This document shows positions 10,194 to 28,909 of a DNA stretch of 64,000 nucleotides, one piece after another. Position numbers and translations under genes: made by a program. Each line of letters opens with the position of its first letter. Positions within the stretch are counted from its first letter, which is position 1. Under the pieces are notes generated by a model. The model saw only the letters and a list, made by a program, of their open reading frames with translations. It searched no databases and had not been told where the DNA came from. This DNA comes from a candidate division WOR-3 bacterium (GTDB lineage Bacteria > Hydrothermota > Hydrothermia > Hydrothermales > JAJRUZ01): the NCBI GenBank assembly GCA_039804025.1, contig JBDRZP010000004.1, positions 1 to 64,000 on the forward strand, given 5' to 3'.

Positions 10194-10584
10194 ATATTTT
10201 CCCTCCCTTTATTCTAACTTGATACTTTTTGAGTGTTTTTAATTTTTTATTTAAAGGATTACCGTTAAGGTCAAATTTTTCTCCGTGGACAGGACAAAAT
10301 AAGACATTTTCATTTTCCTTGTATTCAAGTATAGCCCTTCTGAATGTGCAAATAGCTGAGATAGAAAAAAATTCTGAGCCATTAAAGTATAAAAAAATAG
10401 GTTTCTCTAATTTATAAAATTTTACTTTTGGTTCATGAAAATTTTTTAGTTCATCTATCATAACCCACAGGGGTTTTTTATCATCCCTTGAGCTTAAATA
10501 TGTTAAAGAAGTTCCAAAAAGGACAATTATCCAGAAAAAAATAAAAAACCAGAAAAAAAGTTTAATAAAGTCAATTTTTTTCAT
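10177..10584 (-). CDS. Rieske-like protein with degenerate cluster-binding site
   Basis: 135 residues: one N-terminal transmembrane helix and a short Rieske-like domain. Box 2 is CPVHGE (Cys97, His100) and box 1 is CTFRRA (Cys79, Phe81), so the first cluster His is replaced by Phe and both disulfide cysteines are absent. A sequencing frameshift is unlikely because the frame is intact on both sides. Three of four [2Fe-2S] ligands remain, so it either holds an altered cluster, has become structural, or no longer works. It is the first gene of the cytochrome operon with a good ribosome site (GGAGGGG) and is followed by an equally degenerate cytochrome b. Confidence 0.8.
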   Translation of the reverse strand: MKKIDFIKLFFWFFIFFWIIVLFGTSLTYLSSRDDKKPLWVMIDELKNFHEPKVKFYKLEKPIFLYFNGSEFFSISAICTFRRAILEYKENENVLFCPVHGEKFDLNGNPLNKKLKTLKKYQVRIKGGKIYVLIE

Positions 10585-10696: not shown

Positions 10697-10885
10697 GATT
10701 ATCCTTTAAGTTCAATAGATGAGGAGGCGGGGAATATTATATTTCCTTATGAAAGTCAGGAAGGATGGGGATATGAGATAGGGGAGAGGATAGAAAAGGT
10801 TCTTAAAGAATATTATGGGAATAACTGGCAAGATAATCCTAATGCAAAAGTAATAATTATTTCACACTTAATGGGCGCACATTAA
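10697..10885 (+). pseudogene. Remnant of a lipase-domain gene, related to the giant protein downstream
   Basis: Read in frame from 10697, the translation aligns over about 60 residues with residues ~108-168 of the giant lipase-domain protein at 11825. Shared stretches include VLKEYYGNNWQDNPNAKVII, nearly identical also at DNA level to 12238-12300. The nucleophile motif AHSMGG of the intact gene is SHLMGA here and a TAA follows at once. There is no plausible start. This looks like the leftover of a duplicated or recombined lipase gene. Confidence 0.75.
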
Positions 10886-10970: not shown

Positions 10971-11828
10971 ATGAAAAAGTTAATTTTTATTTTTTTAGTA
11001 GTTTTATTTTTGAGTTGTAATTACAAGGAGGAAGTGTCAGTTAAGTATTTTGCGCCGAGTTGGACTTCAGATAATAAGATAGTGTTTATAGAGATTTATT
11101 GGTATCAGAAATACAGGGAGGGTCCGATTGGGACTGATCTTGTTGAGAATAGGGAAATAGGTTATCTTTGGGAGGTTGATACAAATCAGGTTTATAGGAG
11201 GATAGCGAAGTTATGGGATAGTGAGTATAATCTTGCTTTAACGAATACGACAAGTGCTTTGGATTGGGTAGCGTTTTCAATACTTGGGGAAGATGGGGAA
11301 TATGAGATTTGGGTTATAAGGAGGGATGGGACAGGTTTAAGGAGATTGACAAAAGGAAATTGGCCAGACTTCTCACCAGATGCAAAAAAAATCGTATTTG
11401 AAAGAGATGACGGACTATATATAATAAACATAGATGGGACAGGGGAGCATAGGATAGTAAATGATCCAAGAGCAAATTATCCTGATTGGAGTTCAGATGG
11501 GGGGAGAATTGCATATGTAATCTTTTCTCCTGTGAACGATAATCTTATAATAATAGATACTATGGGAAATTTTTTGAATAGTTATAATACAAAAATAATT
11601 GCACCTGATTGGGGGCCTATAGATTCAAATGCTATTTCCTTTAATAATTGGGATTATGGATGTATCCTACACTTAACCAATGGGAAAATAGATACTTTTT
11701 ATACTGAAAATACTTGGGAGGGTTTATTTTTGTGGTCCCCTTCGGGGAATTTATTTCTTAGAAATACAACTGTTATTAAATATGATGGCACAACACTTTT
11801 CAAAATCAACCCTAAAGGAAAACTATGA
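10971..11828 (+). CDS. Lipoprotein with TolB-like beta-propeller repeats
   Basis: I chose the ATG at 10971 (285 residues) rather than the in-frame ATG at 10887, because it begins a clean lipoprotein signal: MKK, a hydrophobic stretch and FLSC, with Cys as the lipidated residue. Repeats such as GTGLRRLTKGNWPDFSPDAK and GTGEHRIVNDPRANYPDWSS are PD40/TolB-like propeller blades. No catalytic residues are seen. Its stop overlaps the ATG of the giant gene (ATGA), so the two products are probably made together and may interact at the cell surface. Confidence 0.8.
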   Translation: MKKLIFIFLVVLFLSCNYKEEVSVKYFAPSWTSDNKIVFIEIYWYQKYREGPIGTDLVENREIGYLWEVDTNQVYRRIAKLWDSEYNLALTNTTSALDWVAFSILGEDGEYEIWVIRRDGTGLRRLTKGNWPDFSPDAKKIVFERDDGLYIINIDGTGEHRIVNDPRANYPDWSSDGGRIAYVIFSPVNDNLIIIDTMGNFLNSYNTKIIAPDWGPIDSNAISFNNWDYGCILHLTNGKIDTFYTENTWEGLFLWSPSGNLFLRNTTVIKYDGTTLFKINPKGKL

Positions 11829-14800
11829 GGAAAATATTAATATATATTTTTTCATTATCTTTTCTTTACACAGAGCCATATAAGCCTTATCCTATTCTTT
11901 TTGTTCATGGAGCAGCGGGTTCATCTAAGGACTGGGGAGTAAAAATATATAAATTACCAGATAATCCAAGGCCAGATACAATCATAAAGGATTCAATTAT
12001 CCCAGGGCATACTTTTAAATTCTTCCTAAATGAAATGACCCCCTATTGTATAGTTTGGGATGCGATTGATAAGACCTATACTAAACCTGGGGACACTTTT
12101 CCCATTCTTTACCCTAACAAATCTTTTTTAGAGGTTATTAATTTTGCTGATCCTATAGGGTCAGTGGATCCTGACTCTGGGAATTATCCTGAACCTTATA
12201 AAGGATGTGGTGATGAACTCTCTCACAGAATTCAAGAAGTCCTTAAAGAATATTATGGAAATAACTGGCAAGATAACCCTAATGCAAAAGTAATAATTAT
12301 TGCCCACTCAATGGGTGGTGTTGCAACCAGAGAAGCATTGAAAGAAAAACCAGAGCTTATTCCCCATGTCTCGAAAATAATTACACTTAATACCCCCCAC
12401 CTTGGGACAATCAATGCGAATTTAGGAATGAGAGACTGGATGCTACTTACTTTTTTCGTATGGCATCCAATAGTGCCCCCTTTGAAAGTGTTTGTGGAGA
12501 AAATAATACCAGATAATTTACGATTACCTGATTGGCTTGCAAATTCAATAAAAATTGATCTCCAAAAACACTCTATTATAATAGGAGGGAAATTTGTACT
12601 TACCTTACATGGTGATAAAATAGCAGAGATAATAATAGAACACCTTCCCTCTTTTGTATATGAGATACCCTATTTGGGAGAGTTTTTCACAGCTTTTGCT
12701 CTTTTTGAAGGTATAGGCGCACCACTTATTATTGAAATGTGGCGAAAGATGAAGATTACAAATGGCGCTATTCCTGATTTAGCCGAAGGTTCAACATTTA
12801 TAAGAAATCTTGGAACCTATGGAGCAGGCAAAATTCCTTTTGTATCAGTGATGGGAAGAGGTTTTTATGATGATGATAAATATCTCTTTAAAAAATCTAA
12901 ATTAGCGGTCACCCCTTCGGATATAGGAAAAGGACTAAATAGAGGAATTGGACTCCCACTTACAGCATTTTACTGGATTAAGAGTATATTCGAGCCTAAA
13001 CCATTTCTGGAATGGGCAATAAAATCTACTATTTCTGAGGTTATGTGGGAATGGTGGAATTCTGATTCAGATTTCTGGGTTAGATGGGGTTGCCAGAGTG
13101 TCAATCATGTCTCAACAGAATTCAACGCTGAAGAGATACAATTATGGGGAATGTTTCACGGAAGAATAACAAGAGAACCTAATATTATCCTAAAAGCTCT
13201 TGAAGACCGTCCCTTCATTGACTCCGTCATACTCATACAAAAAATTAAGGATTCAACAGGTAATATTATTAAAATTGACACTCTATTCCTCTCCGAAAAT
13301 AAAATTGACACAATCATCGCTGACCTTAAAAACACTAAATTCAGAATTGAAGGTGTCCTTAAAAATGTATACTTCTTAGCTCAAACCGACTTTAATTTGT
13401 TAATTAACGGATTAGGGAGTAGATTCAAATACCCGGATAACCTTGGATACCAAAACAGAAGGTTCTTTGACACAACCTCATTAAATAACTTCCTCGGAGC
13501 AGGAATGAATTTAGTCCAGATAAAAGCTAAAAACATCGTCGGAGAAGAATTCACAAGAAACTATAAACTATGGGTAGTCCCAGCCGGATGGTTCTGCATG
13601 CAAGAAAACCCTGAATACAGAAAAGTCTTACCAACAATCAACACAGAAGATACCTTCAAAATAAGACTTATTAAACTCGGAACATCAGATTCACTTGAAA
13701 GAATTGCATGGGATACACTAAAAATAAACTTCGTAAGATTAATAAAAGATACAAGCGGAAACTACACACCCAACCCCATTGATACCTCCTTAATTTTAAT
13801 TCCAAAAAACTATTATAACTATCAGGACGTAGAAGGAAATGACATAGAATGCTCACAAAATAGAAACTATTTAACCTGTCCAGGGAAAAGACTTTTATTA
13901 CCTTTCACTAACCTAAAACAAATCATACAGGAAAAATTCCCGGATATTTCACCCGATACATTTGAGGGAGTTATCAATATATTTTATAAAGTCAATGATT
14001 ACTATAAAACCTTTAAATCATTCTTCCAGTTCTATGTTGATAAAAAACCACCCGAAATAAAAATAATAGGACCAAAAGGCTCATTCTCAATTAATAGAGA
14101 TACAACTTTACCAGTTATCATAAAAGCAAAAGATAACCTTCAATCTGAATGCATGACCCCTGACTCACTTTTAATTGAAATAAAAGATAAAAATAATAAC
14201 ATGATATATAAAAAGAAATTTGATACCCCAGGCTTTTACTACTACGGAGACCTTTTCTTCCACAATATTCCAAAATATATATTCCAAAACCTAAATGACG
14301 GAATATACAGAATCTTTGTAAAAATAACAGATAGGGCAGGAAATTTTGATACCTTAACTAAAAAATTCAAAGTAGATAATACACCACCTGAAGTAATACT
14401 TGTTGAAAAAATGGATTCTATTTTAAATACAAAAAAGAATTTCCTTGGAATAAAATTCAAAGTAAATGAATGGGCAAAAGCTAAATTAATTCTTTTTAAA
14501 AATAATGAAATAAAATATGAAAAGGAAATAAATGCATTACGAGAAAACTACTATGAACCTCAACCAATGAATAATGATTTTGAATTTGTTAACTCCTTTG
14601 TTATTATGAAAAATGAAATAATAGAAGACGGAATTTATACAGCAAAACTTGAAGTGCGCGATTCCGCCGGAAATGTAATAACACTAAATACTAACGATTT
14701 AACTGGAAATGCTTACTTAAGGATAGATAGAAAACCACCTGAAATGAAAGATATTTATATCCAACCACTTGTTGTTGATGATAACGATAACCTTAATCTT

Positions 14801-17800
14801 TATTTTAAAGTAAGCCAGAAAAAAGATGATAATGATAATAAAAAAGGAGCAAAAGTAAATGTTTATATAGATGAAGATTCAATAAATACATTTATTCTGA
14901 AACCTGAAGATGATACATTAAATATTCAAACATATTTCAGAATTAATTCATCACTTACAGATGGAAAACATAATATAAATCTCATTGCCCGCGACCCATT
15001 TGGAAATGAAAAAAGAAGCTCGTTAATTTTCTTCAAAAAAACATATGGAACTGAAATAACCTTTCCTGATAGAGACACCCTTAAAAGAGGAACTGTTGTT
15101 ATAAAAGGAAGAGCTTCTGACCCTGATATATTTGATGAAATTCCCTTTAAAAATTTTGAAATTTACTGGACAAGAATTATAAATGCACAGGTTAACCCTG
15201 AAAATATAGATACAACAATCTGGAAAAAGAATTTTATTAAGGTGAGGGAAGATTTAAGAAGGGAAAATGAGCTACTTAATTATGGATTTAAAGAAGTTAT
15301 TGAAAATGGAATACTTGCAACCTTTGATATACAGAATATTTTCCGCGATGACCGTAAGCCACAGCCCTTAACATTGCCAAGAATTAAAATTCTTTTAATA
15401 TCAAGGTCAGAAAAAGATGGAATAAAACTTTCTGCCTTTGATACCACAACAATGTATATTTCTAATGAAATTGCTCAAAATCCTGATATTGATATTTATT
15501 TAAGTGTTAAAAAGATAAGAGAAAGAGAAGAAGAAGTCTCACCTTTGAGCAATGACACCCTTATCCTCAATCTAACAAAAGGGGATACATTGCTTGCAAA
15601 ATATTCTTTAAAAAATGTTCCATCAAATATCTATTTCCAGGTTTTAAGTAAAAGTGGAGATATTCTTAAAAGTGAAATGGATGCTGATATTTATCCAATA
15701 AATGGAATACCATCTTTATTGGATAAAAATGGATTTTATCTATTCTCTGATAATCCTGATGAAATTAACATTTGCTACAGGGGTGATTCAACTCAATTTG
15801 GTGGTCTTGAGATAAAAGCTGAAAAGATTTTTGATATAGATTCAGTTTCAGTTGACTCAGGATTTGTTGTGAGCTCTTATATGAATACGGTTAATATAAT
15901 GGCAATAAAAAGCTTTGAAAGAAATCAACAGATAAAGATAAAAGGAAGGGGACCTTTTAAGATAAGTAATTCATATTCAAAAATATATCTCGGAAAAAAT
16001 AAATTATTAACTGAGGGGAATATTTATGTAGGTTCAAAGCTCCACAAGTGGGATGGCAAGATATTCCCTTCAAATACGATTGTTCCTCCGGGTATATACA
16101 GGATTAAGTTTATTGCCTATGGGAAGGATGGTTCAGGTTATGCTGAGAAGGAAAGATTCGTTAAGGTTAAATCAAAATTTGAGATTGATACTATTTATGT
16201 GGAACCAAAGGAAATAACTCTCTATGACCCCAATGTTTCAAAAGTTTCTCTTTATTTCAAGTGTAATATGGATTTAAAGGCTGATATATTTGTTGTAGAT
16301 AGTTATGGGAAAGTTATTGATACTGTTTGTCTTGATAAAAAGTTTTATGGTAGAACAATTACGCATTCAGTTTTATGGAATGCTTATAAAAGCCCAATTA
16401 TAGTTAGTGGTAATTATTGTTTTAAGCTAAAATTAAAAGCGTTAATGAGTGATAGAGATACTTTATGTTATTCTCCTTATTTTTCAGTTATTAATGTTCC
16501 TGTTGAATATGATACTACATCTATTTATATTCCTGATAAATATGCTGAGGGTAATGGTTTTTTAAATGGGGAAAAAATATACGATGCAAAGCCAGAATAT
16601 TTATTTAATTTGAAGGCAAACGGCATACTTTATAACAGGGTCCCTTATACTCTAACTATAACAAGAAAATCTAAAAAATTACCTTTAGAATTGATATGGA
16701 AGACAGAATATTTTACTAAGACAAAAAAATTTTTACCAAGAGAGTTTAAATATATATGTTCTATATCAAAAGGTGGTTCATGGGTTCCAGATAGTTTAGG
16801 ATCTTATAAAATAATTGGATTAAATCAAGACTCAACAAAGATTGATTCGTTCCAGCTTACTCTTAGTAAAGGTCTACTCTGTGTTTTTAATACTTTGAAT
16901 ATATTAAATAATTGTAATGATACACCACCTTGTGAAGAGGGACTTTACTTTGCACAAGTTATAGAATCTGTTAATTGTGGATCTAAAAAATGTTATAGGG
17001 CTACTGCTAAATATAGATTTAATTCTTTAAATGTTGTTAAATTGAAAATTTATAAAGAAAAATATCCCATAGGTTTTATAATTTATGACTCCCTTCTTTC
17101 AAATCTCACCGATTCTTCAAAAATAATCTTAATAGATACTGGTGCTATTTATAAGGATTACTCAAATTTCTTCCCAAGCTCTGATTCAAAACGCTACTTT
17201 TCATCTATACCAAAATATCCAAAAGCTGAACCTTTTACAGATGTAAATGAATTAACTTACTTTAATCCTTATACAAAGGATAGTGTAACACTCTCTAACT
17301 TAGGTTCTGTATCTTTATCCTGGGATATTTTAAAAATAAAAGGTGATACATATGCAATTGTTATATTGAATAATATAAATAATAATAAACTTGATACTCT
17401 GATAAAAGTAAGGAAAATTAAAAAATATGATATTTATGTTTTCACAGAACTTAATAACACTAATAAAATAATTCATCTTTCTAACAAAATTCCCTGTAAA
17501 GTTTTATTAAATATTTCAAATAAGCCTGTTAATACATGGCGAGTAAGATTTATTGTAAAATACAAAAATCAAAAAATTGATAGTTTGAAATCCAAAATTA
17601 TAAAGATAAGTAATGAGATATCCGATACCTCTCTGATTAATCCCTCCCAGTTTATAACATTGATAACACGAAGTTCAAACTTCTTTAGAGAATTACAATT
17701 TAAAATGAAATCAATACCTGAATTTGTTGAAATGAAAAGAATAAGCGGAATGCTCTCTCAGGGAAATAAAGAAGATACAATTTATTTAGACCAGCTTGGT

Positions 17801-20800
17801 TGGAATGGAAGTGATGTTTTAGTTAATTACAACTATACATTAAATCCAGGAGCCAGAAATTCTATTAAAGATACTTTTTTAGAAATACCAAATAAGGGGC
17901 GGGCTGTTATATTAAAATTGAAATCAAATTCCTTTTACTCTAACTGGAATAGCAATATGGACTCCCTTCTAACCAATGGTGAACTTTTCACTAAAAAACC
18001 ATTAACATTTGAAAATATCTTTCCAGATTATGGCTATGTCAGTGGAGCTCTTATATCCCAGAAATATAAAGAAAATTTCAGAAAAAATATACCACAGAGA
18101 TTAAAGAAAAAACCTACACAGATGTTCCACTTTGATTCATGCGGGACCCAAGGTATGTTTAATGAACCACCGGAAGAAGAACCAGGTGTGCCTCCAGGAC
18201 ATGGAGGAGGGAGAATAAACCCACCACCAGTTGATACATGTATTGTTTCTAACCCTGACCTTGATATACAAAATTATGTTGCTCAAATATTTTATATAAA
18301 TAAAAAAACACACCACGACCTTGTTATCGGAGAAAATTCATTCAAAAAACATGGGAAAGGAAATGGAGCAATGGATAGCTTAAGACCCCTTATTAAACTT
18401 ACATATCATCCGCGTGAATTCATTCCTTTAAGAGGAAAATTGAAACAATATCAAAAATATAAAATATACATATCAAGGGAAAATAAAATTTATCCACAAC
18501 ATGATTCAATACGCTCAAGACCCTTAAATAAAGATACATTATTTGGGTTCATTGAATGTTCTGAAATCGGTGAAAAAATAAAAGTTTTATTATATGAATA
18601 CGATAATTCAGGAGATCTTAAACTTATCAGATATAGGGAATTTCAAATCGGAGACCTTTTTGATCCACAGGATAATAATTTCTTAACAGCAAAAAGTCCT
18701 TATGCAAGAGCTGTTATTCAATTTTCAAAAAATTCCTTTAATTTTAAAACTCTTACAGGAATATGTCCTATATACCCTGACTCAATCTATCTTGAAGGTG
18801 ATGAACCATACATAGGTGGAAACTTCGGTCCAATATTTTTCCTCAAACCAAGAGGTGCTAAATTTTATCACCCGAATAAACCAACCCTTTACTACTACTT
18901 TACACCAGAAGAAATAACGAAATACAATATTGACCTTAATAATATAAAAATCTATGCAATAAAAGAAAATGGTGCCCTTATACCCTTAAATACCACAATT
19001 CACCAGGAAGAAGGTAAAATAACACTAAGCGTAATGGCTGACTCCTTCCCTGGAGATTCCTCACCATACTTTGTAGCCCTTGACAGAAGAGAAACAAAAG
19101 ATGGAAGAATAATAATAACAAGGGAAAGAATTCATAATGATACAATAAAAATAAGCGGTAAATACATACCTTACAGAAGTGAAAAAGGTGGAAATGTGAT
19201 ATTTCTTGGTTATTCACAAAAAATTAAAAATATTTACAATTTACTTTATAATAGAATTAACAGAAAATTTTATATATCAAAATCTTCTAATATTGGCACA
19301 AAAGATGGGAACTTTACTTTAAAAATTCCTCTTGATAAATTATTAGAAAATAGATATGAAGATACAATTTATTATTACATAATACCATGTGATACAATCC
19401 CACCTTTAAGGGAAAAAAGTGATACATTAATAAGAGATGATTCCTTTATATTAAGGGGAATAAGAAAATATTTCCTTAACTTTCCTGTTGCCTCAGGTAA
19501 AATTGAAATTGGAATCCCTTCAATAACTATTTTACCTCCTTTAAATCCTTCAACTGGAATTGAAATTGGAAAGCTCAAATTCTTTTTAAATAAAAAAGGA
19601 AAAATATTTTATACCCTATATAACTTAAATGGAGATATCATAGAGCACTTTGAGTTCAATGTCCTTCCATACGATACAATAACTGTAATATGGGACGGTA
19701 AAATAAATAACCTGCCTGCTGAAGAAGGTGAATACATCTATACCCTTAAAGGACTTTCCGAAAACGGAAGATATTCTGATGTAAAAACAGGATACTGGCA
19801 GGTAAAATGGAACTATTATGCTGTTATCCTTTCTCCAGAAGAAGGAGAGAGATTCATTCCAGGAAATAATATTAATCTCAGAGCAAAGGTAATAGGCTTC
19901 AATAAACCTTTAAAATGGGAAATGATAACACAAAAGACAAGGATAATAGGAATACAGGAAGATACATTAACTTCAATTAACTTTACAATACCTGACACAA
20001 TATTTGAAAGAATTATTTTTAAAGCAACCCCATTACCAGAAGGATCCCCTGATTACACAAGTATATACCCGCTTATTTATAACTACTTAGTGGCAATTAA
20101 TGTGGATACACCAAAGGTAATAAAAAATCAAAGAACTTATATTTCATCAAAAACAAAAATTTCTTTTAAAACAATTCCAGAAGATAATTCACCAAAACCT
20201 GCGGAAAGATACAAAATTTACTATAAAATAAATGAAAATCCATATAAGCTTTATGAAAATCCCTTTACAATTAATGGTGAGGATGGAAAGTATCATATTT
20301 CCTATTACCTTGTCTCAAATCGTGGAATAACAAGCGGTGAAAAAGACCTTTACCTTGATAATTCTCCTCCTATTTCACAATTGATTCCGCCTGTTCCTTT
20401 CATAAATAAAGAGGAATCAATAATATTTAAAGATGGGAAAATTCAAATAAAGGCTTTAGATCCAATAGGTGTTAAAAAAATACTATATAGAATAGGCTCT
20501 GAAGAAATAGTCCCTAATTGGAAAATATATAAAGGACCTTTTGAAATTAAAAAAAGGAATTTTACTGTTGAATTCTTTTCAGTAGACAGTCTATCAAATA
20601 AGGAAAATGTAAAGGCGATAAATTTCATAAAAGATACAATACCGCCTTCTATATCAATTTTAATTAAAAAGCCAAGCTGGAATAACAGAAATATATCAAC
20701 TAAAACACCAATTTCAATTTTATCTATTGATGAAGACGCAGGAGTTTTAAATGTATTCTATTCCATCGATGACTCAATAAATTATTCCCCCTACAATAAA

Positions 20801-23800
20801 GAATTCTTTTTACAAGGAGAGGAGGGAATCCACAGGATATACGTAAAAAGTGAAGATAAACTTGGAAATGTTATAAAAATCAATAAATCTTTATACCTTG
20901 ATAAAACACCACCTAAAGCAAATATATTTATTCTTGGAACACACCTTGATTCAATTTTAGGACCATTGAGCAGAATAGGTTTTGAAATCTTACCTGACTC
21001 AACACCATCCTATGTAATCTATAAATTGGATGAAAATGAACCTGAAACATATACAGATCCCTTTATCCCACCCCTTATAAATGGATTGCATCAAATAAAA
21101 TATTATGCAGAGGACTCTGTTCTTAACAGGGGCGGGTTAAAATTCTTCAAATTCTATGTGGATGCTCAAAAGCCTGAAATAACAATTTTATTTCATCCCT
21201 TTTCAATTTTTAAAAATTCAATATTCTATATAGGTGATAGTTTTAAAATTATCATAAAAACCAATGATGAATTTACAGGTATTGATAGTTCAATATTTAA
21301 AATTGATGACATAAGTAGAATCAGATTTATTGACTCTCTTGAATATAGATTGAGAGGTTCTGGTTTTCATAAGTTAAAAGTTTTATCATACGACAGAGTA
21401 GTAAATAAAAAGGATACTTCCATCAATATCTTCATAGATTCTTACCCACCCACAATTAAACTGAAAATTGGTAATCCTCAATATATCTCAGATAAAATAT
21501 ATATAAGCTCAATAACACCCTGCTCTCTTAAAGCAAAGGATAATGAAACATATGTAAAAAATATAACATATAAAATAAATTCTGACTCATTCATTATAAA
21601 TGCTTCTTCTTGCAAATTCAACCTGCAGGGAAAGGATGGAATATATTTAATAAAATATTATTCAAAAGATACCTTTAATAATAAATCATTCACTGAAACT
21701 GAATTCTTATATCTTGATAATACACCACCATCCCTTTCCCTTGAAATACCATCTCCCTTTATAAGAAAAAATGATACCATATATTATAAAACAGGATTTT
21801 TCTCAATCTTTGCATCTGATACTGGCTCAGGATTAAAAAATATCTATTACATAATTAATCCAAGAGAAACGATTGAATGGATGGAATATACAGGACCATT
21901 CAATGTAGAACTTAATAAATTCATACTCGGTATAAAGGCAGCTGATAACCTTTCCAATATGAGTGCTCCTAAATACTATATCATCGTAAAAGATAATAAA
22001 CCACCAAAAGGTGAATTCTTAATTGGAAAACCAAGATGGCATAATAATATATCAAATAAAACACTGATTAGCATAAATTTCAAAGATTCTTTATCAGGTG
22101 TGGATACTGTATTTTATTCAATTGATGATTCTCTTAACTTTTCTATATATACAGAAAGCTTCAATATTCAGGAAGAAGGGAGACATAAAGTTTATGCAAA
22201 AGCAAAAGATAAACTGGGGAATATATCGGGTTTGATTAAGAGGAGTCTTTATGTTGATAATACACCACCAAAATGCTCCCTTGTTATAGAAGGACCCCAT
22301 AAAGATACAATTTTTGGAAAGAAAACTTTTATTTCATTTATCATATCAGAAGACTCAACATTTTCTTTTGTAAAATATAAGTTTGATGATGACACATTTA
22401 ATCTATACACAAAGCCTTTTAATCCCATTTTATCACATGGGCACCATTTTCTTTCCTATTTTGCACAGGATTCTGTATTAAACATATCAGAAATAACTAC
22501 AATAAAATTCTTTGAAGACACAATACCACCTATTATAACCTTTAAGGTTGATTCACCTTTTTATATTTTTGAGGGGACTACTTTTATCTCTGATTCTTCA
22601 AAAATTCATATTTACGCCCTTGACAAAAATGCAGGTGTAGAATCTTCCTTTGTTTATGAACCTATAAACACTTTCTTTACTGATAGCATAATTTTTAAAG
22701 GTAATATTCTTCAAAGTGGAGAAAATACAATTCAGGTGATTTCAAAGGATTTTGTAAAGAATGAAAGAGATTCATCTTTTTATGTCTTTCTTGATGACAA
22801 TCCTCCTCAGGTCTTTTATAAAATAGGAGAACCAAAAAGAAGAGTAGGTGATACAATTCAGGTTTTACCCTGGACTCCTGAAACATTATTTGTAGAGGAT
22901 AAGGAATCAGGGGAAAGGGGGATTTTTTATCAAATAAAAACAAGGGGGAATACAATATCAGGTTTTGTTGAAAATTACTTCTTTATTCCTCCCCTTTCTT
23001 CACCAGGGTTTTACACAGTTAAATTTTCAGGAGTTGATAATGTTTTAAATAAATCTGATACAATGAAAATATTTATAAGGGTTATTGAACCGTTGCCTTC
23101 AATTGTTAAAATCACTTTCCCTTATGATTCTTTAATTGTAAATAGAAATTTCTCAGTAAGGGGATATGCTTATAGACTTTCAAAATGGAGATTAATGTAT
23201 GGTATAGGAATAGAGCCTTCAAATTACATACTTTTAAAAGAAAAAAATTATGAGGTATTTGATTCCTTAACAATCCTTGATACATTTCCTTCTATTTTCT
23301 TAAATGACGGAATTTACACACTTAAACTTGAGGGAATAACATGGTGGGGAGATACAAACTTCCATAAAAGGATTTTATATAAGGGTAAATTTAGAAAATT
23401 TTTAAAAACTGATGTGCCTTACGCCGGAGATATTGACGGTAATAAAGAAATTTTATATTATGTAGAAAGAGCATCTCCGGTAACAAGGGATACTTTTCAG
23501 ATAAGAAAATACATAATTACTGATTCTTTCAACCTTGTTAGAGAGGATACTATCCTTGCCCCATCCATGAAACCCTGTGACATATCATTTTTTCCTGATG
23601 ACAAAGTTTATATTTTAAGTAATCTTGAAACATCATTAGAGGGAAGTGTAATAAAATATAAAAATGGTATTAAGAATGTTTACCGTCTCTCTCCAAAACC
23701 TTTAAGGTGTGAGCCAATGGGAAATAAACTAACTATACTTATGCATAATGAAATAGATTTTGAACACTTTTTAATTCTTGATACATCAAATTTACAAGGT

Positions 23801-24508
23801 GAGATGTTTGGTGAATTTTACTTTGGAATTAGGGATTTTTCTGTTAAAGATTCATATTACTTTTATATTAAAAGTAATAATAAAATTTATAAATTAAAAA
23901 TTAAGAGGAATTCTCCTGAAGATTCAATTAAGGTTGATATTACACCAATAAGAATAAAGGTAAATGAAAAGGGAATAATATGGATAAGTTCTGATAATGG
24001 AATTATTGCATCATACTCTCCATTTAAAGAAAAGATATTTGAGCAAAATCTTAATTCTCAAATTTTCTCCTTTTATATAAAAAGTAGATATCTTTTCGTA
24101 AATGAAAAACCTTTCGAACTTCCAAATTACTATTTAACACTATATACCTACGATATGGGAATTCCTAAATTTCTTGAAGTTTTCTCAAAAAGTAAAAATG
24201 AAGATGAAATTAAAATAGGTGAAATTATTCCTTTCCCATCCCCTTATAATCCTAAAAAAGGATTTTTAAATATAAGTTTTTATCTTTCAACTGATTGTGA
24301 AGGTGAAGCTCTAATCTATACTCTATCAGAAAAACTTGTTAGAAGAATAAAATTTTTCGGAAGAAGAGGAGAAAATAATATAATGTGGGATGGAAAAAAT
24401 GAAGCAGGAATTGATGTTAGAAGTGGTATATATGTTATCTTTATTAGGGTTAAAAATGGAATATTTAAAGAAGAAAAATATACTAAATTTCTTGTTATAA
24501 ACAAATGA
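11825..24508 (+). CDS. Giant surface protein: alpha/beta-hydrolase (lipase) head and many Ig-like domains
   Basis: 4227 residues. After a short signal peptide comes a PGAP1/lipase-like alpha/beta-hydrolase domain (about 20-460) with oxyanion segment LFVHGAAGSS and nucleophile elbow AHSMGG (Ser162). From about 740 there are many Ig-like domains starting with T/K-P-P and containing D-x-x-G/S-N turns. A Pro/Glu/Gly linker sits near 2114-2135 and a FlgD-like domain near 2580-2660. Ig domains 2844-3760 form a five-domain superrepeat present twice. A propeller-like part (~3860-4125) precedes a C-terminal FlgD/T9SS-type domain (MWDGKNEAG...SGIYVIFIRV). Expected location: cell surface or secreted. 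It is coupled to both neighbours by 4-bp overlaps. The substrate is unknown; the hydrolase triad beyond Ser162 was not fixed. Confidence 0.85.
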   Translation: MRKILIYIFSLSFLYTEPYKPYPILFVHGAAGSSKDWGVKIYKLPDNPRPDTIIKDSIIPGHTFKFFLNEMTPYCIVWDAIDKTYTKPGDTFPILYPNKSFLEVINFADPIGSVDPDSGNYPEPYKGCGDELSHRIQEVLKEYYGNNWQDNPNAKVIIIAHSMGGVATREALKEKPELIPHVSKIITLNTPHLGTINANLGMRDWMLLTFFVWHPIVPPLKVFVEKIIPDNLRLPDWLANSIKIDLQKHSIIIGGKFVLTLHGDKIAEIIIEHLPSFVYEIPYLGEFFTAFALFEGIGAPLIIEMWRKMKITNGAIPDLAEGSTFIRNLGTYGAGKIPFVSVMGRGFYDDDKYLFKKSKLAVTPSDIGKGLNRGIGLPLTAFYWIKSIFEPKPFLEWAIKSTISEVMWEWWNSDSDFWVRWGCQSVNHVSTEFNAEEIQLWGMFHGRITREPNIILKALEDRPFIDSVILIQKIKDSTGNIIKIDTLFLSENKIDTIIADLKNTKFRIEGVLKNVYFLAQTDFNLLINGLGSRFKYPDNLGYQNRRFFDTTSLNNFLGAGMNLVQIKAKNIVGEEFTRNYKLWVVPAGWFCMQENPEYRKVLPTINTEDTFKIRLIKLGTSDSLERIAWDTLKINFVRLIKDTSGNYTPNPIDTSLILIPKNYYNYQDVEGNDIECSQNRNYLTCPGKRLLLPFTNLKQIIQEKFPDISPDTFEGVINIFYKVNDYYKTFKSFFQFYVDKKPPEIKIIGPKGSFSINRDTTLPVIIKAKDNLQSECMTPDSLLIEIKDKNNNMIYKKKFDTPGFYYYGDLFFHNIPKYIFQNLNDGIYRIFVKITDRAGNFDTLTKKFKVDNTPPEVILVEKMDSILNTKKNFLGIKFKVNEWAKAKLILFKNNEIKYEKEINALRENYYEPQPMNNDFEFVNSFVIMKNEIIEDGIYTAKLEVRDSAGNVITLNTNDLTGNAYLRIDRKPPEMKDIYIQPLVVDDNDNLNLYFKVSQKKDDNDNKKGAKVNVYIDEDSINTFILKPEDDTLNIQTYFRINSSLTDGKHNINLIARDPFGNEKRSSLIFFKKTYGTEITFPDRDTLKRGTVVIKGRASDPDIFDEIPFKNFEIYWTRIINAQVNPENIDTTIWKKNFIKVREDLRRENELLNYGFKEVIENGILATFDIQNIFRDDRKPQPLTLPRIKILLISRSEKDGIKLSAFDTTTMYISNEIAQNPDIDIYLSVKKIREREEEVSPLSNDTLILNLTKGDTLLAKYSLKNVPSNIYFQVLSKSGDILKSEMDADIYPINGIPSLLDKNGFYLFSDNPDEINICYRGDSTQFGGLEIKAEKIFDIDSVSVDSGFVVSSYMNTVNIMAIKSFERNQQIKIKGRGPFKISNSYSKIYLGKNKLLTEGNIYVGSKLHKWDGKIFPSNTIVPPGIYRIKFIAYGKDGSGYAEKERFVKVKSKFEIDTIYVEPKEITLYDPNVSKVSLYFKCNMDLKADIFVVDSYGKVIDTVCLDKKFYGRTITHSVLWNAYKSPIIVSGNYCFKLKLKALMSDRDTLCYSPYFSVINVPVEYDTTSIYIPDKYAEGNGFLNGEKIYDAKPEYLFNLKANGILYNRVPYTLTITRKSKKLPLELIWKTEYFTKTKKFLPREFKYICSISKGGSWVPDSLGSYKIIGLNQDSTKIDSFQLTLSKGLLCVFNTLNILNNCNDTPPCEEGLYFAQVIESVNCGSKKCYRATAKYRFNSLNVVKLKIYKEKYPIGFIIYDSLLSNLTDSSKIILIDTGAIYKDYSNFFPSSDSKRYFSSIPKYPKAEPFTDVNELTYFNPYTKDSVTLSNLGSVSLSWDILKIKGDTYAIVILNNINNNKLDTLIKVRKIKKYDIYVFTELNNTNKIIHLSNKIPCKVLLNISNKPVNTWRVRFIVKYKNQKIDSLKSKIIKISNEISDTSLINPSQFITLITRSSNFFRELQFKMKSIPEFVEMKRISGMLSQGNKEDTIYLDQLGWNGSDVLVNYNYTLNPGARNSIKDTFLEIPNKGRAVILKLKSNSFYSNWNSNMDSLLTNGELFTKKPLTFENIFPDYGYVSGALISQKYKENFRKNIPQRLKKKPTQMFHFDSCGTQGMFNEPPEEEPGVPPGHGGGRINPPPVDTCIVSNPDLDIQNYVAQIFYINKKTHHDLVIGENSFKKHGKGNGAMDSLRPLIKLTYHPREFIPLRGKLKQYQKYKIYISRENKIYPQHDSIRSRPLNKDTLFGFIECSEIGEKIKVLLYEYDNSGDLKLIRYREFQIGDLFDPQDNNFLTAKSPYARAVIQFSKNSFNFKTLTGICPIYPDSIYLEGDEPYIGGNFGPIFFLKPRGAKFYHPNKPTLYYYFTPEEITKYNIDLNNIKIYAIKENGALIPLNTTIHQEEGKITLSVMADSFPGDSSPYFVALDRRETKDGRIIITRERIHNDTIKISGKYIPYRSEKGGNVIFLGYSQKIKNIYNLLYNRINRKFYISKSSNIGTKDGNFTLKIPLDKLLENRYEDTIYYYIIPCDTIPPLREKSDTLIRDDSFILRGIRKYFLNFPVASGKIEIGIPSITILPPLNPSTGIEIGKLKFFLNKKGKIFYTLYNLNGDIIEHFEFNVLPYDTITVIWDGKINNLPAEEGEYIYTLKGLSENGRYSDVKTGYWQVKWNYYAVILSPEEGERFIPGNNINLRAKVIGFNKPLKWEMITQKTRIIGIQEDTLTSINFTIPDTIFERIIFKATPLPEGSPDYTSIYPLIYNYLVAINVDTPKVIKNQRTYISSKTKISFKTIPEDNSPKPAERYKIYYKINENPYKLYENPFTINGEDGKYHISYYLVSNRGITSGEKDLYLDNSPPISQLIPPVPFINKEESIIFKDGKIQIKALDPIGVKKILYRIGSEEIVPNWKIYKGPFEIKKRNFTVEFFSVDSLSNKENVKAINFIKDTIPPSISILIKKPSWNNRNISTKTPISILSIDEDAGVLNVFYSIDDSINYSPYNKEFFLQGEEGIHRIYVKSEDKLGNVIKINKSLYLDKTPPKANIFILGTHLDSILGPLSRIGFEILPDSTPSYVIYKLDENEPETYTDPFIPPLINGLHQIKYYAEDSVLNRGGLKFFKFYVDAQKPEITILFHPFSIFKNSIFYIGDSFKIIIKTNDEFTGIDSSIFKIDDISRIRFIDSLEYRLRGSGFHKLKVLSYDRVVNKKDTSINIFIDSYPPTIKLKIGNPQYISDKIYISSITPCSLKAKDNETYVKNITYKINSDSFIINASSCKFNLQGKDGIYLIKYYSKDTFNNKSFTETEFLYLDNTPPSLSLEIPSPFIRKNDTIYYKTGFFSIFASDTGSGLKNIYYIINPRETIEWMEYTGPFNVELNKFILGIKAADNLSNMSAPKYYIIVKDNKPPKGEFLIGKPRWHNNISNKTLISINFKDSLSGVDTVFYSIDDSLNFSIYTESFNIQEEGRHKVYAKAKDKLGNISGLIKRSLYVDNTPPKCSLVIEGPHKDTIFGKKTFISFIISEDSTFSFVKYKFDDDTFNLYTKPFNPILSHGHHFLSYFAQDSVLNISEITTIKFFEDTIPPIITFKVDSPFYIFEGTTFISDSSKIHIYALDKNAGVESSFVYEPINTFFTDSIIFKGNILQSGENTIQVISKDFVKNERDSSFYVFLDDNPPQVFYKIGEPKRRVGDTIQVLPWTPETLFVEDKESGERGIFYQIKTRGNTISGFVENYFFIPPLSSPGFYTVKFSGVDNVLNKSDTMKIFIRVIEPLPSIVKITFPYDSLIVNRNFSVRGYAYRLSKWRLMYGIGIEPSNYILLKEKNYEVFDSLTILDTFPSIFLNDGIYTLKLEGITWWGDTNFHKRILYKGKFRKFLKTDVPYAGDIDGNKEILYYVERASPVTRDTFQIRKYIITDSFNLVREDTILAPSMKPCDISFFPDDKVYILSNLETSLEGSVIKYKNGIKNVYRLSPKPLRCEPMGNKLTILMHNEIDFEHFLILDTSNLQGEMFGEFYFGIRDFSVKDSYYFYIKSNNKIYKLKIKRNSPEDSIKVDITPIRIKVNEKGIIWISSDNGIIASYSPFKEKIFEQNLNSQIFSFYIKSRYLFVNEKPFELPNYYLTLYTYDMGIPKFLEVFSKSKNEDEIKIGEIIPFPSPYNPKKGFLNISFYLSTDCEGEALIYTLSEKLVRRIKFFGRRGENNIMWDGKNEAGIDVRSGIYVIFIRVKNGIFKEEKYTKFLVINK
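20356..23090 (+). repeat. Five-Ig superrepeat, two copies inside the giant gene
   Basis: Ig-like units start near 20356 (A), 20641 (B), 20901 (C), 21170 (D) and 21446 (E), and again near 21721 (A'), 22000 (B'), 22264 (C'), 22530 (D') and 22798 (E'). The same order of signatures recurs: PF, KPSW/KPRW with YSIDDS, GTHLD/GPHKD, D-type and IGNPQ/IGEPK. The period is about 1.36 kb, so a block of five domains was duplicated as a unit. Confidence 0.75.
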
Positions 24509-25329
24509 ATATATTTTTAATTCTTTTGTTCCTCAATATAGGAGGAATTGGGTATGATATTTTTGAACTTGCAGGTTCTGCAAGAGCAAAAGGAATGGGT
24601 GATGCTTTCCTCTCAATAAGTGATGACCCTTCCCTTATTTTTTATAATCCAGCTGGACTTTTATCAATAAATAAAATAAAAATTCTTTATATGCATTCTG
24701 AACTATCCTTTGATTCCTACTTTGATAACATATCAGTTTCAAGAAAAGGAATTGGTATTGCATACCTTAGACTTTTTTCAAGTGATATACCCATAATTAT
24801 TTCAAAAGATACAAATATAATTGATAGCACAAATATTTATATAGAAAAAACTAAATACATATCACATGCTTTTTACCTTTCAACAGGATTTTCTTTAAAA
24901 ATCATTAATTTTGGTATATCAGCAAAATTTATTGAAAATAAAACAAAATTTTTTTACGAAAAGAAATTTTTATACGATATAGGAACTTTTAAAAATATTA
25001 AAAAAATTAATTTTGCCTTTGTTTTAAGAGACATAGAATTTGAAAAAAATAAGATGTCATTTATTGAAGGAGGACTTTCTCTATTTCCTTTTGATGACCT
25101 TTTAATATCATTTACAGTTCAGAGAATTTTTGAGAAAGATATATTCAGTATAAAAGGTGGAATTGAATTTAAATTCTCCGATTACCTCCTTTTAAGGGCA
25201 GGTTTAAATGAGGATGAATTTTCATTAGGAACTGGTTTTTTTAAAAATTTTATGGAGGTGGATTATGCCTTTATTATACATTCTGAATTACCTTCTTCTC
25301 ACAGAATATCCATTCAATTTTCCTTTTAA
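24505..25329 (+). CDS. PorV/UPF0164-like outer-membrane beta-barrel protein
   Basis: 274 residues with a signal peptide and then GSARAKGMGDAFLSISDDPS and YNPAGL, the hallmark N-terminal motif of the PorV/PorQ/UPF0164 barrel family. The rest is a series of amphipathic strands ending in a barrel-like C-terminus (ISIQFSF). In Bacteroidota PorV shuttles T9SS substrates from the translocon to the attachment machinery. Here it is coupled by a 4-bp overlap to the giant protein, which has a T9SS-like C-terminal domain, so a dedicated secretion or anchoring role is inferred. Confidence 0.75.
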   Translation: MNIFLILLFLNIGGIGYDIFELAGSARAKGMGDAFLSISDDPSLIFYNPAGLLSINKIKILYMHSELSFDSYFDNISVSRKGIGIAYLRLFSSDIPIIISKDTNIIDSTNIYIEKTKYISHAFYLSTGFSLKIINFGISAKFIENKTKFFYEKKFLYDIGTFKNIKKINFAFVLRDIEFEKNKMSFIEGGLSLFPFDDLLISFTVQRIFEKDIFSIKGGIEFKFSDYLLLRAGLNEDEFSLGTGFFKNFMEVDYAFIIHSELPSSHRISIQFSF

Positions 25330-26017
25330 GGAAATAGAAATTGAATTTAGTGGTGAAAGGATACTTGCACTAAAAGATGAAATAATTATTTATTCTGATA
25401 AAGAATCAAAAATTTATTTTCTTAAGGAAAATGGAGAAATAGATTTTATAATCTTAATATTTGGATTTGAAAAAGGTAAAACAAGAGAAGTTAAAGATTT
25501 AACAACTGATGGAAATGATCTTTTCATACTTGGTGAAGATAAAATAATTATATATAACATACACGGTGAATTAATTAAAGAATTTAAAATAGATGAAATT
25601 AATCCATCAATGATAAGAACACATTTTTCCTTTGGAATTTTTGTTCTTGACAAAAATCAAAACAAAATAACACGATATAACATTGAAGGAATAAAAGAAG
25701 AATCATTTATAATGGAAATATACGATAAAGAGATAACAGATTTTGAAATAGAAAATGGTTTTATCTATGTTTTTTATGAGGATGGGAGCCTTTTTAAATA
25801 TACCCTTTACGGAAATAAAAATAATGAGGTTAAAATTGAAAAAGGGGAAAAATTTAAAATTAAAGATGACCTTATTTTCCTTCTTTCAGATGATAAAATA
25901 AAAATTCTAAAAGATTATAATATTGAGGGCACTATTGAAATGAAAGTAAAGGATTTTTTTATTCAAAGGGAAGTCTTATACATTCTATCTGATAGAATCT
26001 ACCTTATTAAGTTATGA
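25265..26017 (+). CDS. Exported propeller-like protein
   Basis: 250 residues. The start lies 65 bp inside the PorV-like gene and is supported by a strong ribosome site (GGAGGTG) 6 bp before the ATG and by a signal-like N-terminus. The chain consists of short repeating strands with I-L-x-D/E-D-K-I-I-I-Y patterns, as in NHL/6-bladed propellers. No catalytic motif is seen. Similar propeller proteins accompany PorV-type genes in FCB bacteria, but I cannot name a function. Confidence 0.65.
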   Translation: MPLLYILNYLLLTEYPFNFPFKEIEIEFSGERILALKDEIIIYSDKESKIYFLKENGEIDFIILIFGFEKGKTREVKDLTTDGNDLFILGEDKIIIYNIHGELIKEFKIDEINPSMIRTHFSFGIFVLDKNQNKITRYNIEGIKEESFIMEIYDKEITDFEIENGFIYVFYEDGSLFKYTLYGNKNNEVKIEKGEKFKIKDDLIFLLSDDKIKILKDYNIEGTIEMKVKDFFIQREVLYILSDRIYLIKL

Positions 26018-28299
26018 AAATTTTATTTATTTTTTTATTCTTAAAGGAATCAATTGATATTCATGGAGCAAAAGGAATATTCTATGAATCAAAAAATTAT
26101 TTTGGAAATTATCCAAAGGGTTTTTACCCCTATTTCTTAAGACAGGAATATATGAATATTAAAATAAATGGAAAACTTAAATGGCAAACAGAAATAGAAG
26201 GTGATATAACACAAAATTCAAATCCACTAAAACCTAACCATATATTTTTCTCTTTAAAAAACCCTTTTTCAATTTTTACTCTCGGAGAGCAGAATATGTT
26301 TTTAGAAAGTAATTCCCTTTTACTTTCTAATATATATTCTGAAGGAATAAAAGGAAAAATAAATTTTGAAAATTTAAAGGGTGAATTTTTATATTCAAGA
26401 AAAAAGGGGGAAACTCAATACAAAAGATTTAGAGGAAATAATAGCCAGGGTCCATTCCACCTTGATAATCCACCTATTGTTCCTGAAAGTGAAAAAATAA
26501 AATTAATTAAAAATGGAAATTACACACAACTAAAAAGGGGAATTGATTATGAAATTGATTATTCAACAGGTGATATAAATTTCATAAACAGAATAATTAA
26601 AGAGGATGAAATAATAGAAGTAACATATGAGACACAAGAAGAATTATTTAAAGAAATTTATGGGATAAGTTCAAATATTTATTTTATAGGATATTCAGAA
26701 GTAAACTTAAGAGGAAAGGGAATAAAAGAAGGAAATATGGGACTTAATTTTTTTATTCCCCTTCTTAAATACGGAAACATAACCATTCTTTCTGCCTTTG
26801 ATAAATATACAAATAAATTAGGAGCATATGGAGCAAAGGGAAAATTTAATTTTAAAGAGATTAAAATAAACGGATATTCAAATAAATACTTTAACTTCTA
26901 TAAACCTATTGAAGAACCTTACATAACAAAGGGAGGAATAACAAATTCAGTTGATATTTCATATAAATCTTTATATTACACAAGATATGAATTTATAAAT
27001 GAAAAGCGAAATGAAAAAAACTATAAAACAGGTATAAGTTTAAATACAATTTCCTACAGCTTCTCAGAAAACTATCTCAAAGATATAACAGAACAGAATT
27101 CTTCCCTTAATAATTTTGCAATAAATAAAAAAATAAAAAATACTGAATTCAAAACAGAATATATCTTTGGAAAGGAAAAAATAAAGGGGATTATTGAAGA
27201 AAAAAGTTCTGTAAATATTTTAAAAATAAAAATAAATTCAAATTTCTCAAATTTTTATCTTGATGGTGAAAATAATTTTAAATTATCAAGTAATTATAAA
27301 GAAGAAAATACAAAGATTAATTTGAGCTTCTATGATAAGAAAATTAATCTCTATACAAAAGGAGAATACTTTATAAATTCAAAGATTAAGGGAATTTTAT
27401 TAATTACGTCAGGATACAAGATAAAATTATCAAACTCTCTTGAAACAACTGGAAACATAAAAAGAGAATATAAAACTTTATCGGAAAATAATTCAAGGGG
27501 AAGCATCACAGATATATCAAAAAGATTCACATTTTCAATAAAAAGAAATAGTTTTTCAACTTTTGTTAACCTTAAAGAAGCAAAGGGAAATAATTTTTAC
27601 TTTAATTATATAAACTACGGTGGAATAATGAATGTTATTCTTTTTAAAAATATTTTGACCATTTATTCTCTTTCTTTAGGAAAATCAAAAAATATAAAGG
27701 ATAAAAAAGATAATTTAATTGTTTCCAAAAGTATAAAAAATTTTCTCTTATCTTATGAATATTATCTTGCACTAAAAGAAGGAAAAAATTATTTTGACAC
27801 CCTCAAAGTAAGCTCTAAATTAAAATATAATAAATTTTCATTAAATTATTCAGGAATAAAAAAGAGTTTTAAGATTTTTCTTATCAATTCAGATTCTCTT
27901 TCAAAAAGGGAAAATTACTTTATTAATATGAAAACTAAATCTATAAATTTAACATTTTCAAAAGATTTATTGGAGGGTATAAGTATGATAAGCGGAATAA
28001 ATTTATCAGAAAAAATAGGTTATAACACCTATCTTTCAGATAACTTTCTGAAATTCAAAACAATATACCCTTTGATAGGTGCAATGGGAAAAATAAAAGA
28101 TTACCTTACAGTAAAAGGGAAAATAGGGATTGAAAATTCCATTACAAGAAATATAAATTACGGAAGAAAAGAAACAGAGATAATATTTTCAAGTATTTAT
28201 AAAATTTTAAATCTATCTCTATACCTTAAATATACAAAATTTTTAGTCCCTGAATACGGGGATTTTAAATTCTCCTTTAATGGAGAAATAAAATTTTAA
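26014..28299 (+). CDS. Outer-membrane beta-barrel protein with SprA-like motif
   Basis: 761 residues, signal peptide, then almost entirely amphipathic beta strands rich in Lys, Asn, Tyr and Phe. The segment RGIDYEIDYSTGDINFINRI followed by DEIIEVTYE (about 185-210) matches the recurring motif of SprA/Sov-like barrels, the outer-membrane pore of T9SS. SprA itself is about three times longer, so this would be a small relative or only a shared module. It overlaps the upstream gene by 4 bp. Together with the PorV-like gene it suggests an outer-membrane export unit for the giant protein. An ordinary barrel with a convergent motif is the alternative. Confidence 0.6.
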   Translation: MKILFIFLFLKESIDIHGAKGIFYESKNYFGNYPKGFYPYFLRQEYMNIKINGKLKWQTEIEGDITQNSNPLKPNHIFFSLKNPFSIFTLGEQNMFLESNSLLLSNIYSEGIKGKINFENLKGEFLYSRKKGETQYKRFRGNNSQGPFHLDNPPIVPESEKIKLIKNGNYTQLKRGIDYEIDYSTGDINFINRIIKEDEIIEVTYETQEELFKEIYGISSNIYFIGYSEVNLRGKGIKEGNMGLNFFIPLLKYGNITILSAFDKYTNKLGAYGAKGKFNFKEIKINGYSNKYFNFYKPIEEPYITKGGITNSVDISYKSLYYTRYEFINEKRNEKNYKTGISLNTISYSFSENYLKDITEQNSSLNNFAINKKIKNTEFKTEYIFGKEKIKGIIEEKSSVNILKIKINSNFSNFYLDGENNFKLSSNYKEENTKINLSFYDKKINLYTKGEYFINSKIKGILLITSGYKIKLSNSLETTGNIKREYKTLSENNSRGSITDISKRFTFSIKRNSFSTFVNLKEAKGNNFYFNYINYGGIMNVILFKNILTIYSLSLGKSKNIKDKKDNLIVSKSIKNFLLSYEYYLALKEGKNYFDTLKVSSKLKYNKFSLNYSGIKKSFKIFLINSDSLSKRENYFINMKTKSINLTFSKDLLEGISMISGINLSEKIGYNTYLSDNFLKFKTIYPLIGAMGKIKDYLTVKGKIGIENSITRNINYGRKETEIIFSSIYKILNLSLYLKYTKFLVPEYGDFKFSFNGEIKF

Positions 28300-28309
28300 G
28301 GAGGAAAAT

Positions 28310-28909
28310 ATGTTAGCCTTATACTTTATATTTTTCCTAACACAGGAGGAAATTGAAAAAAAAATAAGAAAAAATTTTGAATGGATAAAAAATATAAATG
28401 AAATAAAAGGAAAGATTGAATTTATAACCACAAAAAAGGACACTCAGTTTATAGAACCTATGACCTTTAATTTTGAAATAAAAAGAAAAGAAAAAAATTT
28501 TGAATTTGAAATTGAAAGTAATAAAGAAAAAATTATAATGAAAGAAAATCAGATAATTTTCAAAGATAAGAGTATGCCTATTCCCACCATTAATCCACCG
28601 ATACTTGATACTCAAAGCATATTCCCAAAAGGGAAAATAGAAATTCAAGAAATAAAAGAAAGAAAAATTATTGAATTAGAGTCAATACCAAAAGATACCT
28701 TACAAGGTATTCTGAAGTGTAGATACACAATAAATACTGAGAAATGGCTGATAGAAAGTGCTGAAATTTTATCATTTATGGGCACTATATATGTATTTTT
28801 TGAATATGAGGAACTTAAAAAGAACAATTACTTTTATAAGAAAATTACATTAATTTTCCAGGAGGGAGTAAAAAGCGAAATTATATATAATATCTCTCAA
28901 GTAAAGTAA
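28310..28909 (+). CDS. LolA-like periplasmic protein
   Basis: 199 residues with a short signal segment and a strong ribosome site (GGAGGAAAAT). The layout (N-terminal helix, I-K-G-K-I-E-F strand, repeating antiparallel strands, and a middle segment with R-Y-T-I-N-T-E-K-W-L-I-E) resembles the LolA/DUF4292-type outer-membrane lipoprotein carrier fold. It is the last gene of the surface operon. A role in carrying the operon's lipoprotein is plausible, but family assignment rests on pattern only. Confidence 0.55.
   Translation: MLALYFIFFLTQEEIEKKIRKNFEWIKNINEIKGKIEFITTKKDTQFIEPMTFNFEIKRKEKNFEFEIESNKEKIIMKENQIIFKDKSMPIPTINPPILDTQSIFPKGKIEIQEIKERKIIELESIPKDTLQGILKCRYTINTEKWLIESAEILSFMGTIYVFFEYEELKKNNYFYKKITLIFQEGVKSEIIYNISQVK

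Follow-up and report, generated by a model that had tools for sequence, protein, structure and literature searches.

Type IX export has been described with one SprA pore, with PorP/SprF shuttles serving type B tails. In Flavobacterium johnsoniae, the relevant passages of one study report a dedicated PorP/SprF-like shuttle gene directly downstream of type B cargo and needed for its secretion, and a single PorV used by all type A tails (PMC12618676). The type IX secretion system (T9SS) was described as limited to Bacteroidetes in a passage of a 2016 survey (PMC4793230); a 2024 paper places it possibly in further FCB (Fibrobacteres-Chlorobi-Bacteroidetes) phyla, WOR-3 being unnamed in the relevant passage (PMC11285876). 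Our literature searches found no description of a T9SS for the WOR-3/Hydrothermota phylum, and secretion, lipase, outer membrane and T9SS are all unmentioned in the text of PMC12542636. Here we describe an operon of six plus-strand open reading frames (ORFs; positions 10971-28909) in the first 64,000 nucleotides (the window) of contig JBDRZP010000004.1, from a heat-loving, uncultured candidate division WOR-3 bacterium (assembly GCA_039804025.1, here genome G000). It resembles the SprB-SprF pair of F. johnsoniae, a T9SS type B system, in its giant repetitive surface protein, putative C-terminal sorting domain and directly downstream candidate shuttle gene, as far as that pair is described in the passages concerned (PMC12618676, PMC9143113). 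It differs in that the shuttle is PorV/PorQ-like and not PorP/SprF, the tail is FlgD-Ig-like, and a SprA-related barrel, a propeller, a LolA-like protein and a lipoprotein are added. The operon is thus a variant on the known theme of type IX export, not a new kind of system, and is best read as a cargo module linked to the T9SS that brings its own shuttle and, as a second pore, a SprA-related barrel, through which the cargo would pass. We assign a probability of roughly 0.45 to the reading that it is a dedicated export/display module of the type IX kind in which the barrel, P0005, acts as pore or docking platform. Its features are as follows.

10697..10879, plus strand: lipase N-terminal remnant (second copy), directly before the lipoprotein gene; lipase profile columns 107-164, E 1e-19
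10971..11828, plus strand: lipoprotein P0001 with TolB/PD40-like propeller repeats; start corrected from 10887, where the longest ORF opens, to 10971, where the lipoprotein signal MKKLIFIFLVVLFLSC starts
11825..24508, plus strand: secreted giant P0002 (4227 residues), with signal peptide, lipase-like domain, Ig-like and OmpL47-type repeats and C-terminal domain
11882..13204, plus strand: lipase-like alpha/beta-hydrolase domain of P0002, residues ~20-460
24248..24505, plus strand: FlgD-Ig/T9SS-like C-terminal domain of P0002, residues ~4142-4227 (PF13860 and PorU/PorZ model ends)
24505..25329, plus strand: PorV/PorQ-like outer-membrane barrel P0003, candidate dedicated shuttle (NF033709)
25265..26017, plus strand: small secreted propeller P0004 (from same-slot relatives)
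26014..28299, plus strand: SprA-related large beta-barrel P0005 (761 residues), candidate dedicated pore
26434..26661, plus strand: SprA-like domain inside P0005, residues ~141-216 (TIGR04189 and hhalign)
28310..28909, plus strand: LolA-superfamily periplasmic carrier-like protein P0006 (from its fold)

An ORF check of the window found all six genes on the plus strand, in agreement with the preliminary description of this stretch, which had proposed an operon coupled by overlaps. Successive junctions overlap by 4, 4, 65 and 4 nucleotides and the fifth is a 10-nucleotide gap, so the coupling by overlap holds at four junctions but not at the last pair. The genes flanking the operon point the opposite way on both sides, and a promoter and terminator scan gave signals no commoner than in shuffles. 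Since the same order occurs in other genomes with diverged proteins, the six-gene operon is confirmed as real and its order as more than chance.

Recurrence was followed in 147 genomes of the WOR-3/Hydrothermota phylum and in a smaller neighbourhood set of 41 (genomes are labelled G, contigs C and loci L). A search with the single P0005 sequence gave matches in 5 of the 41 neighbourhood genomes, the only close one besides itself being in G004 (46%), whereas a three-row barrel profile at E<=1e-10 matched 17 of the 147. The barrel is linked in ten of these genomes, from nine families (G000, G004, G007, G046, G048, G053, G070, G122, G124 and G128); of the other seven, the five that were read (G066, G079, G080, G081 and G088) carry a second, unlinked family, the remaining two being G071 and G082. 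The order is complete in G004 (lipoprotein, giant, PorV-like, propeller, barrel, LolA-like), and G053 has a cut lipoprotein gene, a 4333-residue giant, PorV-like, propeller and barrel. G007, G046 and G048 show giant tail, PorV-like and barrel, as does G070 with an inserted second tail protein. PorV-like, propeller and barrel genes follow one another in G124, and in G128 with a 123-residue gene after the PorV-like one; both contigs begin just before these genes. G122 has LolA-like, lipoprotein, a PorV remnant (C-terminal piece only), propeller and barrel. Gene order thus recurs, and parts of the block were also found in other lineages: PorV-like, two other genes, a propeller-like gene and barrel in L070 (Margulisiibacteriota), and a propeller-like gene with barrel in L077 (Saganbacteria). 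Two additional loci carry giant tail, PorV, propeller and barrel (L067) and giant tail, LolA-like, PorV-like, NHL propeller and barrel (L069). The L067 contig is binned as a Thermoplasmatota archaeon, yet it carries a bacterial outer-membrane gene set, and the binning is probably in error.

Of the 147 genomes, 14 match the lipase profile, and lipase and linked barrel occur together in 8 (10 with barrel, 14 with lipase; Fisher p 3e-8, uncorrected for kinship). The association falls short of full obligation: six lipase genomes have no linked barrel, and two barrel genomes, with short contigs, have no lipase match.

The putative cargo, P0002, had been described as a giant with a T9SS-like tail. 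Its tail is FlgD-Ig-like (PF13860/FlgD_ig, E 4e-5 and 2e-4) and aligns with the C-terminal portions of two NCBIfam models, PorU (E 0.001) and PorZ (E 0.0018), but the sorting-tail model TIGR04183 gave no match on it at E<=0.1. That description was also incomplete at the other end of the protein, where the N-terminal part is an alpha/beta-hydrolase resembling PGAP1/DUF676 (Pfam E 2e-10), its serine lying in an AHSMGG motif. This serine (S162), D416 and H445, invariant among three aligned relatives, are the putative catalytic triad. Ig-like domains and nine OmpL47-type stretches are also present, and the 4333-residue relative in G053 gives BLAST alignment at both ends and in the middle.

Directly behind the giant lies P0003, which matches the PorV family model NF033709 (E 2e-17, 63.6 bits, cut-off 90); its same-slot homologue in L067 reaches 95.9 bits, over the cut-off. 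The earlier assignment to a PorV-like barrel probably names the right family, although the P0003 score is below the cut-off. This pairing is one of several, as five of the eight PorV places in G000 (E<=1e-8) stand directly behind a sorting-tail gene, the giant and P0003 among them. We extended the count to 73 PorV places in 11 WOR-3/Hydrothermota genomes, three of which are of one genus, so that counts are not independent. An upstream neighbour, defined as a same-strand ORF of at least 120 residues within the window used, was present at 57 places; the ends of these neighbours matched TIGR04183 in 29 cases, Por_Secre_tail in 21 and FlgD_ig in 17 (overlapping sets). Among 37 downstream controls, TIGR04183 was not among the 25 families listed, and so had at most one match. 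An uncontrolled count by eye judged 37 of the 73 upstream ends to be like C-terminal sorting domains. In these genomes PorV-family genes often come immediately after a gene with a sorting tail, and such pairs mirror the cargo-shuttle rule reported in the relevant passages for F. johnsoniae, but with shuttles of PorV type (PMC12618676).

PorV pairings were recorded at L026-L033 and L081-L144, and several other PorV genes follow genes with ends resembling outer-membrane receptors (L102, L103, L121, L131, L137). The gene that precedes PorV at L135 (G008:C36) resembles an HNH nuclease of the IscB/Cas9d type. The IscB model hits one end in the set of 57 (E 1e-18), and that this end is the one at L135 was judged from its sequence.

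The barrel P0005 had no family match in Pfam/NCBIfam scans of proteins. The SprA model TIGR04189 touches it only at model positions 616-657 (23.2 bits, E 7e-6, cut-off 200), and the other conserved SprA blocks of this model were not matched. When a profile of eight P0005 relatives was compared by hhalign with a profile of six SprA segments, 117 columns were aligned (probability 97.5%, E 5e-12), the common stretch being the 'SE-V...RG-DYEIDY--G-I-F' domain. The P0005 family also aligns over 188 columns (99.1%, E 2e-18) with a second barrel family of the phylum, itself related to SprA (hhalign 96%). Because one hhalign-supported stretch is common to P0005, SprA and this second family, P0005 is, by homology, a SprA-related protein and not SprA. 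The preliminary description had called it SprA-like and held that a fold unrelated to SprA would speak against its view; the 117-column homology argues for relatedness, but the likeness is confined to a single stretch. P0005 thus has in common with the SprA/Sov translocon, a 36-strand barrel, about 117 homologous columns and a predicted very large, strand-rich barrel, and differs from it in length (761 residues, vs 1801 for the SprA/Sov of the same genome) and in its unmatched conserved blocks.

Structure prediction, which had been suggested earlier, gave an AlphaFold2 model with ~40 strands, 8 before and ~31 after the SprA-like domain, but with low confidence (predicted local distance difference test, pLDDT, 67.8; predicted template modelling score, pTM, 0.44). 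Foldseek lists large barrels, among them LptD, the PapC usher and SprA (6h3i, rank 4, E 6e-6, TM 0.28); their TM-scores are low, and LptD ranks above SprA. AlgE and ordinary porins head the VIA-align rows listed, matching over parts with Z up to 15, and SprA is absent from those rows. A PDB sequence search with the barrel profile gave no match. The predicted fold is evidence for an outer-membrane barrel of very large size, but taken alone it does not point to SprA in particular. Members of the second barrel family (~900-1000 residues; G000:C14, at L018 5552-9162, and L057-L059, L061 and L062) each follow a small propeller-like gene, as the barrel does in the operon. Unlike P0005, the C14-type barrels lie among housekeeping genes, without cargo or PorV.

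The preliminary description had further proposed that the set is self-contained, a compact relative standing in for a T9SS. This is not supported. The genome encodes a full-length SprA (G000:C17; 305.9 bits with neighbouring stretches, TIGR04189 cut-off 200; open frame of 1821 codons), a PorU-like protein (G000:C5; model positions 4-1094 of 1095, 377.6 bits, cut-off 420; frame of 1241 residues), nine PorV-family genes, P0003 included, and 76 matches to TIGR04183 sorting tails, 59 of them over the cut-off. SprA matches are present in 41 of the 41 neighbourhood genomes, over the cut-off in 38. With the models used, GldM was not found in G000 (the one genome searched), GldN was found in 0 of 13 genomes, where controls were also silent, and GldL gave only below-cut-off matches, in 6 of 13 genomes and none in G000; GldK was not searched for. 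These motor-gene negatives do not prove absence. The search for core T9SS genes thus yielded SprA and a PorU-like protein but not GldL, GldM or GldN, and the complete T9SS elsewhere, named earlier as evidence against a private export set, was recovered for the most part (SprA, PorU-like protein, PorV, tails), motor genes excepted. Within the window, other T9SS-tail matches lie on the minus strand at 38113-38331, 46949-47095, 53070-53321 and 57324-57557, two of them over the cut-off.

With a full-length SprA and PorU-like proteins in the genome, the giant might instead leave through the general SprA, the operon supplying P0003 as its own shuttle and anchor together with surface accessories, and P0005 serving as an anchoring or assembly barrel and not as a protein pore. 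PorV and PorP-like shuttles have been proposed, in the passage concerned, to share one docking site on SprA (PMC9143113), and these genomes often carry cargo-PorV pairs that have no barrel. We consider this doubtful, as it leaves unexplained why a SprA-homologous barrel stays with the cargo in nine families.

In the dedicated module that we favour, the giant P0002, which has a signal peptide, would reach the periplasm by Sec. Its FlgD-Ig-like tail would be captured by P0003, acting as its own shuttle and surface anchor, as family and gene pairing suggest. P0005 would be the pore or docking platform where P0003 takes up the giant, consistent with its homology to SprA and the conserved linkage. 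P0006 and P0001 may act in the periplasm on behalf of the set, by delivering the lipoprotein, for example, or by restraining the lipase before export. The general SprA/PorU/PorV route would serve the other proteins with sorting tails, and might yet have a part in processing or energising the giant. What stands of the earlier proposal is a cargo with its own outer-membrane set, given the linkage kept across families, the PorV-like partner and the homology of P0005 to SprA. The stricter version, a second, cargo-private translocon in which a mini-SprA barrel, together with a PorV-type shuttle, a propeller and a LolA-like factor of its own, exports one giant lipase-like protein in parallel to the general SprA, as part of a phylum-wide habit of cargo-PorV paralogues, seems rather unlikely.

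Several points weigh against the dedicated module. Every transport step is inferred. Full SprA and a PorU-like protein lie elsewhere in the genome, so that a second pore is not strictly needed, and the block is dispensable, because the close relatives G001, G002 and G003 have no barrel detectable with the barrel profile. P0003 scores under the PorV_fam cut-off. The model of P0005 is weak, with LptD placed above SprA by Foldseek, and a second aligner puts ordinary porins and AlgE at the top of the predicted-fold matches. The related propeller and barrel set without cargo or PorV shows that barrels of this type have a role, or more than one, untied to a neighbouring cargo.

The SprA-related barrels of the phylum make up at least two further families beside the one SprA pore, one of which is linked to just one giant cargo and a PorV-like partner. 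This suggests that some big cargoes may come with export machinery that is partly their own, even where the cell has a general route. If P0005 is a pore, a SprA-type barrel can be reduced to ~760 residues and be cargo-specific, and the operon offers a compact set to probe the minimal needs of a route of the type IX kind. Through the cargo-PorV pairing alone, shuttle specificity becomes open to testing by sequence across many genomes.

Another possible function is lipid use, in which a surface lipase would free lipids, P0003 (FadL superfamily) and P0005 would import them and the LolA-like protein would ferry them through the periplasm. P0006 was earlier called a LolA-like carrier, and this is upheld by fold (model pLDDT 76; Foldseek matches 3buu, E 4e-7, 3bk5 and Porphyromonas gingivalis LolA3, 9tp6) but not by LolA family models, of which none matched in Pfam or NCBIfam; P0006 thus has the fold in common with the LolA superfamily, LolA3 included. 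Besides this fold, the lipase-like domain of P0002, the presence of the lipid transporter LptD among the large-barrel Foldseek matches and the placing of PorV in the FadL family of 14-strand barrels, in the relevant passage of PMC9143113, would agree with lipid use. Nevertheless, Pfam gives no FadL-family match for P0003 or its L067 homologue where NCBIfam gives PorV_fam, PorV genes stand behind many other tail-bearing genes and P0005 is homologous to SprA, and we regard lipid import as improbable. P0004 had no Pfam or NCBIfam family match; in G053 and L069, NHL-repeat propellers related to it occupy its slot.

Relatives of P0001 stand before a giant or lipase-like gene in G004, G053, G003 and G040, and the remnant before the window's own lipoprotein gene (10697..10879) contains a 126-nucleotide direct repeat with 12190-12315 (79% identity). 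Such lipoprotein and cut lipase copies, which alternate in G128 and G040, might be spare modules as in polymorphic toxin loci, the giant being an antibacterial lipase delivered at the surface and the lipoprotein protecting its producer. The duplicated part is the N-terminal enzyme and not a swapped C-terminal toxin, and this reading would be very improbable.

The tandem arrays of lipase N-terminal pieces and lipoprotein genes lie at L165 (G128:C48, 62-5491) and, on the minus strand, at L167 (G040); in G128 the array includes three of the lipase pieces, two complete lipoprotein genes, a third that is truncated, and a LolA-like gene. Four in-frame stops, every one of them TAG, occur in the operon of G004, three in the giant (L016 9073, 12847 and 14377) and one in the barrel (L012 1588). 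The giant otherwise keeps a single frame across ~10 kb, and a pseudogene and amber read-through are candidate readings. Genome-wide stop recoding in G004 was considered, since all four stops are TAG, and dropped, as TAG ends 9 of the 45 ORFs of at least 150 residues in 11 G004 loci (some of these being the giant's internal stops). To the left of the window's operon are cytochrome b, Rieske and multihaem cytochrome genes (7981-10584, minus strand), and to the right a coiled-coil gene and a VIT-family gene; G002 holds one lipase remnant at a contig end, beside the same left flank.

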